A DNA stretch of 11,343 nucleotides from Acidimicrobiia bacterium (GTDB lineage: Bacteria; Actinomycetota; Acidimicrobiia; Spongiisociales; UBA5794). The position numbers and the translations under genes were made by a program. Location: positions 1-11,343 of the forward strand of contig JABDMN010000318.1 of the NCBI GenBank assembly GCA_013001485.1, in the 5' to 3' direction. Below, one piece after another: positions 5,837 through 10,079 of this stretch. The notes beneath the pieces are model-generated. The model saw only the letters and a program-made list of their open reading frames with translations, ran no database searches and had not been told where the DNA came from. How positions within the stretch are numbered: the stretch's first letter is position 1; each line of letters starts with the position of its first letter.

Positions 5837-7210
5837 TCACAGGACCAACGAGGCCGTTAAGAGGAATCCTCCGAAGCCGACTAGGTCGGTTACGAGGGTC
5901 AGGAAGATGTTTGATGCCAGGGCGGGGTCTTGGCCAAGTGCTTTCAAGATCAGTGGCACGCCGGCTCCAGCGACCACGGCGATCGCCATGTTGACGAAGA
6001 CTGCGACGGCGATCACGACGCCAACAGCACCGTCCCCGGCCACGACCGCCCCAAGCAGCCCTGCGAGCCCGGCAATCGCCAGGCCGTTGACGACGCCTAC
6101 CTGGGCCTCACGGCTGATTACCCGGGGAGCCCTCTGAGCCGGGATGTCGCCGACGGCAAGCGCCCGGATGACAACGGCGAGGCTCTGTGCCCCTGAATTC
6201 CCTCCGAGCAAGGCCACCATCGGCATCATTGCTGCCAGGGTCGCGTTGGCCTCGATCGTCCCCTCGAACGATCGGAGGAACACGGCCAGCGACAGGCCCA
6301 TCACGAGGTTCAGCGTGATCCAGGGAAGGCGGCGCCTCACGGACACGCCGACCGGGGTGTAGACCGTCTCCTCGGCACCGGCTCCCATCATCACGGCGAT
6401 GTCCTCCGTGGCCTCTTCCTGAAGCGCTTCGAGCGCCTCGGAGACTTTGACCATGCCGAGGAGCCGGCCGTTGTCGTCGACCACGGGCAGCGCGATCAGG
6501 TGATACCGCTGGATCAGCTCGGAAACGACTTCACGGTCTGTGTCGGCTTTCACCTGCACCGGAGCGTGCACCATCACTTCGTCGACCCCTGTGCCGGGGC
6601 GGGCGAACACCAGCTCCCGAAACGACAGAACGCCTGCCAGCCGCTGGTCGTTGCCGACGATGTAGACGTATCGCAGGTTGGATCCGAGAGAGTCGTGGAG
6701 CTGTCGGAGGCGCTCGATTGCCTCACCGGAGGTGATGCCGACCGGAAGGGTGGCCACATCGGTGGTCATCAGGCCGCCAGCAGAATCGTCGGGGTACGAC
6801 GCCAGGCGGATCGCCTCACTATCCGCACCCAGCGCTTCTGTGATCTGTGGCCGGGCATCGTCATCGAGCTCACCGAGGACGTCGGCAGCCTGGTCTGGCT
6901 CCATGGCGGCGAGAAGACGGGCAGCCTCTGTCGGGTCAAGCTCCGTCAGCACTTCTGCGGCCGCCGCGGGTCGCATCTCGTCGAGGACGTCCGCAGCGTC
7001 CTCGGAACCGAGGTCGGCGATCAACTCTGCCGCAGCCTCCTCGTCGATCGCTTCGAGGATGTCTGCCGCGTCGTGAGGGAGTTGCCCGGCCAAGGCCTCC
7101 CACTCCTCGCCGTGGTCTTCGAGGTAGTCCTCGGCGTCGTCGGGTCGTCGCCGCGCCAGCTCGCGCAGGCCCTGGGCGAGTTCGCGAGGACGGAGCAGCC
7201 GGAAACGCAT
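5837..7210 (-). CDS. mgtE: Magnesium transporter MgtE
   Basis: MgtE is a homodimeric, Mg2+-gated Mg2+ channel of the inner membrane. The 457-residue protein has the usual order: an acidic helical N domain (about 20-130, repeated DAAD and EAA(R/E) units), a CBS-domain pair (about 145-262, SAGGLMTTDVATLP then VMVHAPVQV and VVDDNGRLLGMVKVSEAL), and a transmembrane domain (about 295-457). The last contains PMVALLGGNSGAQS (330-343) and DPALASNIFLTLVTD, whose Asp442 corresponds to the conserved pore-region aspartate. Length is normal. The gene is convergent to the c-di-GMP regulator and divergent from selD. The ATG at 7210 has no Shine-Dalgarno sequence; TAGAGT seven bases upstream suggests a leaderless transcript. 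Mg2+ acts on the protein through the N and CBS domains. I saw no riboswitch. Confidence 0.96.
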   Translation of the reverse strand: MRFRLLRPRELAQGLRELARRRPDDAEDYLEDHGEEWEALAGQLPHDAADILEAIDEEAAAELIADLGSEDAADVLDEMRPAAAAEVLTELDPTEAARLLAAMEPDQAADVLGELDDDARPQITEALGADSEAIRLASYPDDSAGGLMTTDVATLPVGITSGEAIERLRQLHDSLGSNLRYVYIVGNDQRLAGVLSFRELVFARPGTGVDEVMVHAPVQVKADTDREVVSELIQRYHLIALPVVDDNGRLLGMVKVSEALEALQEEATEDIAVMMGAGAEETVYTPVGVSVRRRLPWITLNLVMGLSLAVFLRSFEGTIEANATLAAMMPMVALLGGNSGAQSLAVVIRALAVGDIPAQRAPRVISREAQVGVVNGLAIAGLAGLLGAVVAGDGAVGVVIAVAVFVNMAIAVVAGAGVPLILKALGQDPALASNIFLTLVTDLVGFGGFLLTASLVL

Positions 7211-7217
7211 AACCAGG

Positions 7218-7223
7218 ACTCTA
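7218..7223 (-). promoter_or_regulatory. Putative -10 box (TAGAGT) for mgtE
   Basis: On the minus strand TAGAGT ends exactly seven bases before the mgtE ATG, in the TANNNT-N7-ATG arrangement also seen at 3518, 8574 and 10092. There is no Shine-Dalgarno sequence between it and the start, so the mRNA is probably leaderless. No convincing -35 box is visible. Confidence 0.5.
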
Positions 7224-7289
7224 GGAACCGGTCTGGAGCTTGGGGCTCATGCGGAACCGTGCATGGGATGCCGTGTCGCCCGGGAATGG

Positions 7290-7323
7290 GACAGGCCCCC
7301 CAGGGGGGACGGGGGGGCCTGTC
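7290..7323. repeat. Strong GC-rich inverted repeat between mgtE and selD
   Basis: GACAGGCCCCCC (7290-7301) and its exact reverse complement GGGGGGCCTGTC (7312-7323) form a 12-bp perfect stem with a 10-base G-rich loop. No T tract follows on either strand. As it lies between divergent genes it ends no gene in the window. It may mark the end of an unannotated RNA, be a protein-binding dyad, or affect a leader transcript. Confidence 0.7.
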
Positions 7324-7481
7324 GTGTCCGTCCACGCACGGTGAATCGAACTGACTGAGCCTCTATAGATCAGGTTCTCGACGGCGAGTCGGTAAACGGC
7401 GCTTTACATACGGCTTCGTGCATACTGCGTCGGTGTTTGTCTAGTGCGCCCTGACGGCCAAGACTGTCCGGACTACTGCTG

Positions 7482-7491
7482 AAGGAGGTGA
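7482..7491 (+). promoter_or_regulatory. Near-perfect Shine-Dalgarno sequence for selD
   Basis: AAGGAGGTGA matches the full anti-Shine-Dalgarno complement over ten bases and sits directly before GTG 7493. Spacing from the GGAGG core is only four bases, slightly short. It marks a translation start upstream of the in-frame TGA, supporting the full-length selenoprotein reading rather than a start at GTG 7712. Confidence 0.8.
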
Positions 7492-7492
7492 C

Positions 7493-8536
7493 GTGGATCA
7501 CATACGCCTGACGGCCTTTTCTCACGGCGCAGGTTGAGCCTGCAAGCTCTCGTCAGCAGAGCTGGCGCAGGTTCTGCGTCCCCTGGAGAACACACCGGTC
7601 ACTGAGCACCCCGATCTCATCGTTGGAATCGGCGGTGCAGATGACGCCGCCGTCTTCCGCATCGATGCCGACACGGCCATCGCCCAGACAGTCGACTTCT
7701 TCACACCCATCGTGGACGACGCCTACGACTGGGGTCGGATCGCCGCGGCCAATGCGTTGTCCGACATCTACGCGATGGGTGCGACGCCGGCCATAGCCCT
7801 GCAGATCGCCGGGTGGCCTCGTGACTCGCTTCCGATGGAACTGCTGGCCGAGGTCTTCGCCGGCGGTGCCGACGTGCTGCGACGGGCGCGGTGCACTCTC
7901 GTCGGTGGCCACAGCATCGACGATCAGGAACCGAAGTACGGCATGGCCGTCACCGGGATCGCCCACCCGGCCCGCATCGTGACCAACGGCAACGCCAAGG
8001 CAGGCGACTTCCTCATTCTGACCAAACCGCTGGGGTCGGGGATCATCTCGACAGCGATCAAACGCGACCTCGCGGCGCCACAACAGCAACGCGAAGCCGT
8101 GGACATGATGACGGCCTTGAATGCCGGTGCCGCGGACGTCATGACGTCAATCGGCGTGCACTCGGCTACCGACATCACGGGTTTCGGACTGATCGGCCAC
8201 CTGTCCGAGATCACAGCGACCTCGGGGGTGGGTGCTGCTCTCTCGCTCAACGCGATTCCTGTGATCGATGGTGTTCGTGAGCTCGCTGCCCAGGGAGTCG
8301 TGCCGGGTGGCTCGCACCGCAATCTGGCCGCCGCAGAGGATGTCGCCGATCTCGGGGGCATCGATGAGGTCGACCGGCTGGTGATCACGGATGCCCAGAC
8401 CTCCGGCGGCCTGCTGATGGCCGTCCCCCCGGCCCGGGCCGAGGTGCTCATCAACGCTCTGGAGTCCAAAGACGATGTGATGGTGGCGGCCGTCATCGGC
8501 GAGGTGACCGACGGTGACCGCATCGTGGTCACCTGA
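7493..8536 (+). CDS. selD: Selenide, water dikinase containing selenocysteine at the active site
   Basis: SelD makes selenophosphate from selenide and ATP, the selenium donor for selenocysteine tRNA and 2-selenouridine. Reading from GTG 7493 gives MDHIRLTAFSHGAG, then TGA (7535-7537), then ACKLSSAELA. This aligns with the E. coli start RLTQYSHGAGCGCK, with TGA exactly at the catalytic Cys17 position. The product is thus a selenoprotein with Sec15 and the essential Lys18. The total is 347 codons, the same length as E. coli SelD. Downstream motifs are intact: GGADDAAVF, DFFTPIVDD, GRIAAANALSDIYAMG, GGHSIDDQEP, TDITGFGLIGHLSE and DAQTSGGLL. A SECIS-like hairpin follows the TGA. Calling the ORF from GTG 7712 would lose 73 residues including the active site. 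selA, selB and selC are not in the window. A hydrolase gene follows after 50 bp. Confidence 0.97.
7535..7574 (+). promoter_or_regulatory. Selenocysteine UGA codon and putative bacterial SECIS element
   Basis: The TGA at 7535-7537 is followed at once by a foldable segment. The outer stem pairs CCTGC (7539-7543) with GCAGG (7567-7571) and can extend through G·U and two more pairs into the UGA itself. Inside it are two alternatives. One is AGCTCT/AGAGCT (7545-7550, 7558-7563) with loop CGTCAGC. The other is a 7-bp stem (7551-7557 with 7561-7567) with loop AGA, 20 bases after the UGA. Both present a G among the first two loop bases, as known for bacterial SECIS elements bound by SelB. The second spacing is closer to known cases. 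Confidence 0.8.
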
Positions 8537-8542
8537 GCCGAA

Positions 8543-8562
8543 GGCCCCTGGCAGGGTGGGCC
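8543..8562 (+). terminator. Weak hairpin after selD
   Basis: GGCCC (8543-8547) and GGGCC (8558-8562) pair around a 10-base loop, six bases after the selD stop. The stem is short and there is no T tract. It lies between selD and the putative leaderless promoter of the next gene, so a terminator or attenuator is possible but weakly supported. Confidence 0.3.
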
Positions 8563-8573
8563 CCGCGTCCCGA

Positions 8574-8579
8574 TAAGCT
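8574..8579 (+). promoter_or_regulatory. Putative -10 box (TAAGCT) for the hydrolase gene
   Basis: TAAGCT, in the context CGATAAGCT, ends seven bases before ATG 8587. The same words and spacing occur before the lipoprotein gene. No Shine-Dalgarno sequence is seen before the ATG, so a leaderless mRNA starting at or next to it is likely. The upstream TTG 8581 would fall outside such a transcript. Confidence 0.5.
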
Positions 8580-8586
8580 CTTGGGG

Positions 8587-9492
8587 ATGAAGCGACTCCT
8601 GGCGTACGTAGCTGTTGCATGGGCGGCGTGGCGGTTGTTCGGTCCGCGAGAAACCCCTCGCTTTTCGGGGATTCAACGCCGGCCGATGAAGCTGCCTGGC
8701 CGCACCGTGTTCGTTGGCCAACGCGAGTTCATGGTGCGCCGCGCCGGTGTCGAAGGTGGCCCTCCCCTCGTGCTGGTTCACGGGTGGCTGTTCGACGCTG
8801 AATCCATGTTCCACGCCGTGGTCCCGCATCTCACCGACCAGTTCGACGTGATCACCATCGATCATCGCGGCCACGGGAAGACCGACCGCATGGGGGAGCG
8901 TTATGACATCGAGGATGCCGCCGATGAGGTGGCGGCGGTCATCGCGACACTCGATGTCGGCCCGGTGTCCTTGCTCGGCTACTCGATGGGTGGGCTGATT
9001 GCTCAGTCGGTGGCATTGCGTCACCCGGCGCTCGTGGATCGCCTCGTCCTTGCGGCTACGGCTGCGAGGCCTGTGAGAACTGGCCGGGTCGGCTTCCGGA
9101 TCGGGCTGAACCTGATGCGGGCGATCGATCGGCTCAGCCCGACCGAGGGAAGCTGGGTGGGCCGATTCATTCTGCGACAGCGTGGAAGCCTCGATCCAGA
9201 ACACGACCGCTTCACCTGGGAGATGCTCCAGCACCGTGATAGCGAGGCATTCCACGAGGCCGGGGCCGCGCTGTGGCGATTCGACTCCCGCGACTGGATC
9301 CGCAGGCTGAAGGTGCCAACGATGGTTGTGATCGCAACCCACGACCAGGTGATGCCTTCACCCCTCCAGTATGAGCTGGCGTCGCTGAGGCCGGAGCGGG
9401 TTGTTGAACTCCCGTCGGTGGGTCACGAGTCGATCATCACGAGACCAGCCGAGTACGCCAAAGCCATCTCGGCGTTCTGGCACGAGACCTGA
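8587..9492 (+). CDS. Alpha/beta-fold hydrolase with N-terminal membrane anchor
   Basis: The 301-residue protein belongs to the alpha/beta hydrolase superfamily. The oxyanion-hole motif HGWLFDAESM follows LVLVHG, then DHRGHGKTDR. The nucleophile elbow GYSMGG places Ser133, the acid is probably Asp253 in THDQVMP, and His280 (VGHES) completes the triad. A tryptophan/alanine-rich hydrophobic stretch at residues 4-18 precedes a proline-rich connector, so the enzyme may be membrane-anchored with its catalytic domain outside. An uncleaved anchor or a signal peptide are both possible. A cap region around 165-215 is likely. The substrate cannot be told; esterase, lipase and haloalkane-type functions all share this pattern. 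ATG 8587 is preferred to the in-frame TTG 8581 because of the -10-like box seven bases before it. rnhA follows after only 3 bp. Confidence 0.92.
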   Translation: MKRLLAYVAVAWAAWRLFGPRETPRFSGIQRRPMKLPGRTVFVGQREFMVRRAGVEGGPPLVLVHGWLFDAESMFHAVVPHLTDQFDVITIDHRGHGKTDRMGERYDIEDAADEVAAVIATLDVGPVSLLGYSMGGLIAQSVALRHPALVDRLVLAATAARPVRTGRVGFRIGLNLMRAIDRLSPTEGSWVGRFILRQRGSLDPEHDRFTWEMLQHRDSEAFHEAGAALWRFDSRDWIRRLKVPTMVVIATHDQVMPSPLQYELASLRPERVVELPSVGHESIITRPAEYAKAISAFWHET

Positions 9493-9495
9493 CCA

Positions 9496-9984
9496 ATGCG
9501 CGACCGTCTGCTCACTCTCGCCGAGGTTCTCGAAGCCTTCCCGAACGACATGAAGTCGGGCGTGTTCACCGATGGCAGTGCCGTCCCCAATCCCGGTCCG
9601 GGTGGCTGGGGAGTCGTCTACGTGCGTGACGGCGAGGTCGTCGACCAGGCCCACGGCCATGATCCCGACACGACCAACAACCGGATGGAGCTTGCGGCCA
9701 TCATCGAGGCCTACGCACTCGTACCGGATGGCGAACGCACAACGCTCTACAGCGATAGCAACCTCGCCGTGCGCACCTTGAACGAGTGGGCTGCCGGTTG
9801 GGAGCGACGAGGGTGGAAACGCAAGACGGGACCAGTGGAGAACCTGGACCTGGTCAAGAAGGCCTACTACCTGTTCCGACGCCGGCCGGAGGTGAAGGTC
9901 ACATGGATCAAGGCACACGACGGGCACCGCTGGAACGAATACGCCGACTCCCTGGCCTCGGCGTGGCAGCGGGACGAGCTATGA
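9496..9984 (+). CDS. rnhA: Ribonuclease HI
   Basis: RNase HI cuts the RNA strand of RNA:DNA hybrids, clearing R-loops and helping remove primers. The 162-residue protein has all four catalytic acidic residues: Asp26 (FTDGSAVPNPGPGGWG), Glu65 (TNNRMELAAI), Asp87 (YSDSNLAV) and Asp151 (NEYADSLAS). The catalytic-loop His141 (KAHDGH) and the tryptophan-rich basic segment WAAGWERRGWKRK (the handle region) are also present. Compared with E. coli the N-terminus is about 16 residues longer (RDRLLTLAEVLEAFPND). An internal ATG at 9550 would give the shorter form, but the longer reading begins 3 bp after the hydrolase stop and fits the operon spacing. No strong Shine-Dalgarno sequence is seen. Its stop is 5 bp from the stop of the convergent microprotein. 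Confidence 0.96.
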   Translation: MRDRLLTLAEVLEAFPNDMKSGVFTDGSAVPNPGPGGWGVVYVRDGEVVDQAHGHDPDTTNNRMELAAIIEAYALVPDGERTTLYSDSNLAVRTLNEWAAGWERRGWKRKTGPVENLDLVKKAYYLFRRRPEVKVTWIKAHDGHRWNEYADSLASAWQRDEL

Positions 9985-9989
9985 GACGG

Positions 9990-10079
9990 TCAGTGGGTGT
10001 GGGTGGACTCGACCGTCATGAACTTCGTGACGGCGAACCCGATCGCCACCAACACCAGCAGGAGGAACAGCTTCTTCAT
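9990..10079 (-). CDS. 29-residue membrane microprotein
   Basis: This short minus-strand ORF starts MKKLFLLLVLVAIGF, a di-lysine followed by a single hydrophobic helix of about 15-17 residues, and ends with a polar tail ESTHTH. It fits exactly in the gap between rnhA (stop 9984) and ctaA (start 10111). The minus-strand frame stays open much further upstream, into ctaA, but the part above 10079 is shadow sequence. TAGCCT lies exactly seven bases before the ATG, with GTCACA 17 bases further upstream as a possible -35, so a leaderless promoter is plausible. Small actinobacterial proteins with an MKK plus one membrane helix are known (for example the DLW-39 family), but the DLW tail is absent. Function unknown; it could also be chance. 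Confidence 0.55.
   Translation of the reverse strand: MKKLFLLLVLVAIGFAVTKFMTVESTHTH

Follow-up and report, generated by a model that had tools for sequence, protein, structure and literature searches.

An in-frame UGA at the catalytic position of selenophosphate synthetase in an Acidimicrobiia bacterium is probably read as selenocysteine

The selD gene at positions 7493..8536 (forward strand) of the window, i.e., of the whole 11,343-nucleotide stretch of Acidimicrobiia DNA that was analysed, most probably encodes a selenocysteine (Sec)-containing selenophosphate synthetase in which the UGA at codon 15 would be decoded as Sec; we put the probability of this reading at roughly 96%. The sequence evidence that points to it comprises the reading frame, the conservation of the codon, coding constraint on both sides of it, covarying hairpins downstream, a tRNA-Sec gene (selC) and a second UGA-bearing gene in the same genome, and selA and selB in a sister genome. 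Actual Sec insertion, the activity of the enzyme, and the presence of selA and selB in this organism are what we infer.

The frame is preceded by the Shine-Dalgarno sequence AAGGAGGT (7482..7489, forward strand), which lies 3 nt 5' of a GTG start at 7493, and runs for 347 codons (7493-8533) to the true stop TGA at 8534-8536, the preceding in-frame stop being a TAG at 7442. Its single internal TGA is codon 15 (7535..7537, forward strand), which lies in the peptide VDHIRLTAFSHGAG-TGA-ACKLSSAEL; the ribosome-binding site, the GTG start, and the 347 codons free of any further stop are all as the first-pass annotation had described them. In the sister genome (G001), AGGAGGTGAC stands ahead of an ATG at the same start codon. 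Read through the TGA, the protein scores 392.4 bits against the NCBIfam selD model TIGR00476 (cut-off 125), carries the domains AIRS (PF00586) and AIRS_C (PF02769), and is aligned by phmmer with PDB entry 3u0o (E 2.2e-81), which we take to be SelD of E. coli. The TGA column there falls on the first Cys of SHGAGCGCK (presumably Cys17), as expected from the earlier placement of this TGA on the active-site Cys of SelD. The catalytic motif thus reads SHGAG-U-A-C-K here versus SHGAG-C-G-C-K in 3u0o, the two sharing SHGAG-x-x-CK, whereas the E. coli enzyme has Cys for Sec and its gene needs no SECIS element at this place. A second structural relative, SelD of Aquifex aeolicus (PDB 2yye and 2zod), aligns over residues 6-319 (E 2.7e-60) with a different loop (SSGCAAK); we take these entries to represent a natural selenoprotein that was crystallised with Cys at the Sec site. 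The feature under study had been drawn only as far as 7711; it extends past that point, because the whole selD gene to 8536 belongs to it.

From a gene caller applying the standard code, a truncated SelD would be expected. The first ATG, GTG, or TTG 3' of the codon-15 TGA is GTG 7712, which opens a 274-aa ORF (7712..8536, forward strand) without the catalytic loop. The forecast that automatic annotation would yield a truncated protein from 7712 held in its general form: P0004, the nearest relative among the matches listed (94% identity), is entitled 'selenide, water dikinase SelD, partial [Acidimicrobiia bacterium]', and its first residue corresponds to Leu 24 of the protein encoded here, past the Sec codon. 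Among the 120 database relatives listed of 7,949 at E 1e-60, Cys occupies the site in 109 (108 by motif, plus P0097 with a variant motif) and 11 start past it, a share that gives no estimate for truncated relatives because the listing favours full-length proteins. U is printed in none of the 120, and a stored U was possibly printed as C.

For comparison, a set of 60 genomes was used, i.e., the window's own genome (G000; 2.25 Mb in 405 contigs, 82.85% complete, 5.67% contamination, with the window as contig C237) and 59 relatives. SelD matches were found in 57 of the 60, one of which was weak (G059, 28% identity) and was left out of the SelD count, giving 56 genomes with a full-length SelD; the same search returned no match in G012, G026, and G029. 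Alignment of relatives at this column had been proposed as a check, and codon 15 in the 56 full-length genes is TGA (52), TGC (three), or TGT (one) and nothing else, at the same motif position throughout and with the conserved Lys codon after the site in 56 of 56. The sister SelD is 92% identical, with its TGA at the identical position, and the neighbourhood of the gene is common to both genomes (window positions 5984-10031 align end to end at 77%). Relative to the sister, codons 1-14 show five synonymous changes in addition to the altered start codon (GTG/ATG). In codons 16-73 there are 17 synonymous changes and one non-synonymous change, and in codons 74-347 there are 135 synonymous and 25 non-synonymous changes; of the 60 bases 5' of the start, 22 positions are identical in an ungapped count, which understates the likeness if indels are present. 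On these comparisons, codons on both sides of the TGA appear to evolve as protein-coding sequence, with selD under purifying selection.

Beyond the common motif, the SelD genes of three genomes in one family (f6; G048, G041, and G054, loci L110, L111, and L123) read SPGGG-U-T/A-S-K, so that the UGA is kept and two motif residues, the His and second Cys, are replaced. In a sample from across the phylum, 192 of 296 genomes had a SelD match at E 1e-50 or better; one TGA was present in 97 of the 150 matches listed and none in 53, the position of the TGA being confirmed in only a few of the 97. Among the matches listed, SelD genes with one in-frame TGA thus appear to be frequent in the phylum. A SelD with 54% identity was also seen on CAMBEL010000023.1 (L167), which is titled as a Bifidobacterium breve MAG; the title looks doubtful. 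Among the relatives compared here, G044 and G015 match PKRG01000006.1 (Acidimicrobiia bacterium ZC4RG17) and CAJWGC010000002.1 (uncultured Acidimicrobiia bacterium), respectively, with 100% identity across selD stretches of 1,701 and 3,987 bases, and the window's organism is likewise taken to be an uncultured member of Acidimicrobiia.

Downstream of the UGA, the 52 UGA genes were aligned over the UGA plus 51 nt, gap-free, and counts were taken on the 47 distinct rows. RNAalifold placed two abutting hairpins within 43 bases 3' of the UGA (alignment columns 11-29 and 30-46). The first of these, of 6 bp (7545..7563, forward strand; two of six pairs changed on both sides, 98.9% of cells paired), adjoins the putative SECIS apical hairpin, GGCGCAGGTTCTGCGTC (7564..7580, forward strand; three of seven pairs changed on both sides, 99.1% of cells paired). 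Over the whole 13-pair structure, 99.0% of cells are paired, and in the window all 13 consensus pairs are standard, one of them being G-U. The apical loop is GGUYC or GUY across the alignment and GGUUC (or GUU) in the window, where it stands 32-33 nt from the UGA. Double-sided changes occur in 23 cells versus a mean of 4.6 in shuffles that ignore relatedness (0 of 500 as high), and 5 of the 13 pairs carry such a change (a number reached by 11 of 500 shuffles). When the structure is slid by 1-3 columns, which keeps relatedness, 26.5-42.4% of cells are paired, a comparison that tends to favour any structure drawn from the alignment itself. PMC13188914 gives as constraints on bacterial SECIS elements a G in the first loop positions, a spacing of 16-37 nt, an upper stem of 4-16 bp, and an energy of -7.5 kcal/mol or lower; the apical hairpin of the window, at -8.6 kcal/mol, fits them.

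The genes with a Cys codon provide a contrast. All 52 UGA genes have GTC or GTT as the Val codon of the loop, versus 60% in the more distal part of these genes to the extent that it was covered; the corresponding codon in the four Cys genes is GTG, ATC, GTG, and GTG. Folded in isolation, the apical hairpin of the 52 UGA genes has a mean energy of -10.1 kcal/mol (weakest, -5.7), and that of the four Cys genes has -1.2, -5.0, -0.7, and -0.1 kcal/mol, one of these (-5.0) coming near the weakest UGA genes. The apical hairpin is lost or weakened in each of the four Cys genes. It is on covariation and on this contrast that the case for a SECIS rests, and energies are not relied on: when 54 nt of the window starting at the UGA are folded, the best structure has -22.6 versus -16.2 kcal/mol for the consensus, which comes within 0.3 kcal/mol of the best fold in only six of the 52 sequences; single-sequence folding of the region does not stand out from shuffles (z -1.0), and an Rfam scan of the window returned 0 matches. 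At 7536-7574, an alternative fold pairs GAGCCUGC (two UGA bases included) with GCAGGUUC at an energy below that of the SECIS structure. This fold may be due to chance, or it may compete with the SECIS before a ribosome arrives; a ribosome standing at the UGA would by our reasoning open it.

Turning to the decoding machinery, the window's genome has a tRNA-Sec gene at C226:8565-8655 (75.9 bits by Infernal, gathering score 47), at which ARAGORN reports a tRNA-SeC with anticodon TCA. Fourteen further Infernal tRNA-Sec matches in this genome all lie below the gathering score, and five of these loci were set aside after ARAGORN called four of them tRNA-Ser (L010, L011, L013, and L014) and returned nothing for the other (L009). 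In the 83%-complete assembly, the search for selA gave no match and that for selB nothing above the family cut-off; the top matches to the SelB model, on C315 and C78 (about 200 bits), proved on inspection to be EF-Tu genes. These two EF-Tu genes differ in sequence and may represent two loci or contamination (5.67%). In the sister genome, selA and selB are adjacent on C420, and comparison of this region with the window's genome gave 23 matches, of which one is long (C295:2-605 to positions 3-607, 81%) and the other 22 are short, about 24 to 140 bases, and lie elsewhere. Contig C295 stops approximately 3.5 kb ahead of the expected selA. The missing pair is best explained, by an indirect argument, as a probable assembly gap, because the sister has the pair and the homologous contig ends before it. 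The first-pass annotation had suggested looking for selA, selB, and selC in the rest of the genome; selC was found, while selA and selB were not in this 83%-complete assembly, both being present in the sister. Absence of both selB and selC from a finished genome, which would have counted against the proposal, is not the situation here, with selC present and the genome unfinished.

Across the 60 genomes, SelB is over its cut-off in 53 and SelA in 52, and a tRNA-Sec was found in 48 (with stricter filters, E 1e-10); judging from these gene counts, Sec decoding appears to be common in this Acidimicrobiia order. Among the 52 genomes with a TGA-containing SelD, 47 have a SelB above the cut-off. The others are the window's own genome, G016 (95% complete), in which two SelB pieces lie on two contigs, G022 (90% complete), which is without SelA and has both tRNA-Sec and an FdhA gene with TGA, and G030 and G033 (60% and 72% complete), both without SelA and tRNA-Sec. 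One of the genomes without SelD, G012, is also without SelA, SelB over the cut-off, and tRNA-Sec.

The search for other Sec-containing ORFs, for which fdh had been named as an example, yielded an FdhA-type gene in the window's genome (C360:4918-6786, L151). It has one in-frame TGA, in the motif SCNRT-U-HAPSVAGL, i.e., at the active-site motif before His-Ala-Pro, and it carries the molybdopterin oxidoreductase domains PF00384 and PF01568. Its score against NCBIfam TIGR01591, 659.8 bits (model positions 50-672 of 672), falls just below the cut-off of 666.25, and for this reason the gene is labelled no more than FdhA-type. A hairpin with a GGUC loop lies 18 nt from its UGA. In the SECIS of E. coli fdhF, a short G+C stem is capped by the loop GGUC; compared with that element, the selD loop is separated from its UGA by 32-33 nt, a stretch that includes a second hairpin, whereas the FdhA loop of this genome lies at 18 nt. 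Together with selC and the 52 TGA plus four Cys codons at the site, the UGA-bearing FdhA gene supports the core of the earlier proposal, i.e., that SelD is itself a selenoprotein with Sec at the catalytic Cys position and an N-terminus hidden by the TGA. Elsewhere in the set, an FdhA-type match with a single TGA occurs in at least 43 of 60 genomes, among the matches listed, with the position of the TGA read in eight. Selenouridine synthase, sought in 13 genomes including that of the window, was over its cut-off in none, and five had short matches of about 25 residues. For GrdB/PrdB, 33 of the 60 genomes had a match, six of them full-length, with no in-frame stop among the matches listed.

Five relatives, namely G007, G024, and G032 (one genus) and G050 and G056 (another family), have a TGA-containing SelD and both selA and selB over the cut-offs. 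A selC gene was found in four of the five. None has an FdhA-type match with an in-frame TGA among the matches listed (for G050, no match is listed) or a selenouridine synthase over the cut-off, and the GrdB/PrdB family is missing in the first three and present without an in-frame stop in the other two. It is conceivable, and in our estimation unlikely, that SelD is the sole selenoprotein in some relatives, in which case the Sec machinery would serve only its own feeder enzyme in a closed loop without visible pay-off. Another selenoprotein in these five is likelier, because most selenoprotein families were outside the search. The genome of the window is itself outside this scenario, as it has an FdhA-type gene with UGA. 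Zhang et al. (2006) raised the possibility that SelD maintains the Sec trait without FdhA, perhaps sustaining selenouridine formation (PMC1794560).

Other accounts of the internal TGA must be weighed against decoding as Sec. Were it a real stop, selD would be a pseudogene or would give a shorter protein translated only from GTG 7712. The 274-aa ORF from 7712 does exist, and among the 120 database relatives listed, examined as proteins only, 11 start past the Sec/Cys site; yet this account is hardly credible in view of the 17 synonymous changes to one non-synonymous change in codons 16-73 and the five synonymous changes in codons 1-14 relative to the sister, as well as the state of this codon in the 56 full-length genes, which is TGA in 52 and a Cys codon, never another stop, in the rest. 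The short form would also be without the catalytic loop, and an N-truncated Leishmania SelD without the catalytic residues failed to complement E. coli selenoprotein synthesis (PMC7595633). An assembly or sequencing error in place of TGC or TGT could be suspected in a genome this fragmented (405 contigs, 83% complete, 5.67% contamination), but is very unlikely because the same TGA is carried by 52 genomes of the order; moreover, the SECIS hairpin is absent or weakened precisely in the four genes that have TGC or TGT.

Genome-wide reassignment of TGA (e.g., to Trp or Gly), under which the codon would not be Sec, deserves next to no credence: of 11 ORFs picked in the window, 10 (selD among them) end in TGA, the genome encodes a tRNA-Sec with anticodon TCA, and the codon sits in the catalytic Cys/Sec column. 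The frame and its UGA might instead be a relic, left after loss of selA and selB and now read poorly or not at all. We consider this quite improbable. Neither selA nor selB was found in the assembly, as such a loss would predict; against it stand the retention of selC and of a UGA-bearing FdhA frame, the 13 of 13 intact consensus SECIS pairs in the window, the purifying selection on selD relative to the sister, and the occurrence of selA and selB in that sister, with the homologous contig ending before the pair.

On the favoured reading, i.e., that the UGA is decoded as Sec, translation would begin at GTG 7493 and the ribosome would reach the UGA at codon 15, where SelB, with Sec-tRNA-Sec and bound at the downstream SECIS hairpin, would bring about insertion of Sec instead of termination. 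Translation would then proceed to the second UGA, at 8534, which would end the protein. Sec 15 would replace the catalytic Cys in the flexible N-terminal loop, alongside Lys 18, with selenide and ATP being converted to selenophosphate. This product would supply Sec synthesis for SelD itself and for the presumptive Sec-containing formate dehydrogenase of the same genome. If Sec is required for activity, a positive feedback is plausible, in which synthesis of SelD depends on SelD's own product because of the decoding of the UGA as Sec. The Cys-containing relatives, for their part, suggest that Sec is dispensable for the SelD enzyme in this order.

The four Cys-containing SelD genes (G015, G043, G044, and G057; L044, L105, L106, and L107) do not form one group in a maximum-likelihood tree built from 56 SelD proteins and eight outgroup rows. 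That of G015 stands beside the Sec gene of G018 and that of G043 with the Sec gene of G056; those of G044 and G057 share a family with two Sec genes. The Sec/Cys label requires five changes with the outgroup, four of them inside the order, and the family of G044 and G057 is explained equally well by two losses of Sec or by a single loss plus a regain. On the assumption of an ancestor with Sec, the tree thus indicates that at least three of the four changes within the order were from Sec to Cys, because this family allows either two losses or a loss and a regain. SelA and SelB exceed their cut-offs in all four Cys-SelD genomes, and three of these genomes (not G043) have an FdhA-type match with TGA, among the matches listed. 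The Sec-containing arrangement is not obligatory in the order, because four Cys-SelD relatives keep selA and selB. Zhang et al. (2006) reported a change from Sec to Cys in SelD and also remnants of SECIS elements after Cys codons, shown for an FdhA and a HesB-like gene (PMC1794560).

The window's selD is an ordinary further example of a long-known class of Sec-containing SelD, known also in Actinobacteria. Mariotti et al. (2015) counted Sec in 19% of the SelD genes found in a set of 223 reference prokaryotes, without exception at one and the same position (PMC4561486). The Sec-SelD proteins of bacteria and archaea share this single Sec position with the present case, with Sec machinery in the clade; only the lineage differs, the TGA-containing form being the usual one (52 of 56) in this uncultured Acidimicrobiia order. 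In Zhang et al. (2006), Table 4 enters Rubrobacter xylanophilus SelD under families of selenoproteins that sister organisms have lost; SelD also stands in Table 3 among the selenoproteins of Symbiobacterium thermophilum, then classed under Actinobacteria (PMC1794560). The R. xylanophilus Sec-SelD is of the same kind, in another lineage of the phylum. Our literature search found no paper treating Sec-SelD in Acidimicrobiia, a statement that covers that search alone.

Ultimately, the analysis corrects the annotation of selD for a lineage in which standard gene callers drop the catalytic N-terminus of the protein. The order also offers a natural series for the study of Sec and Cys exchange in SelD, with four Sec/Cys changes on the tree, at least three of them from Sec to Cys if the ancestor had Sec; each Cys gene has a lost or weakened SECIS apical hairpin, and its genome retains selA and selB.
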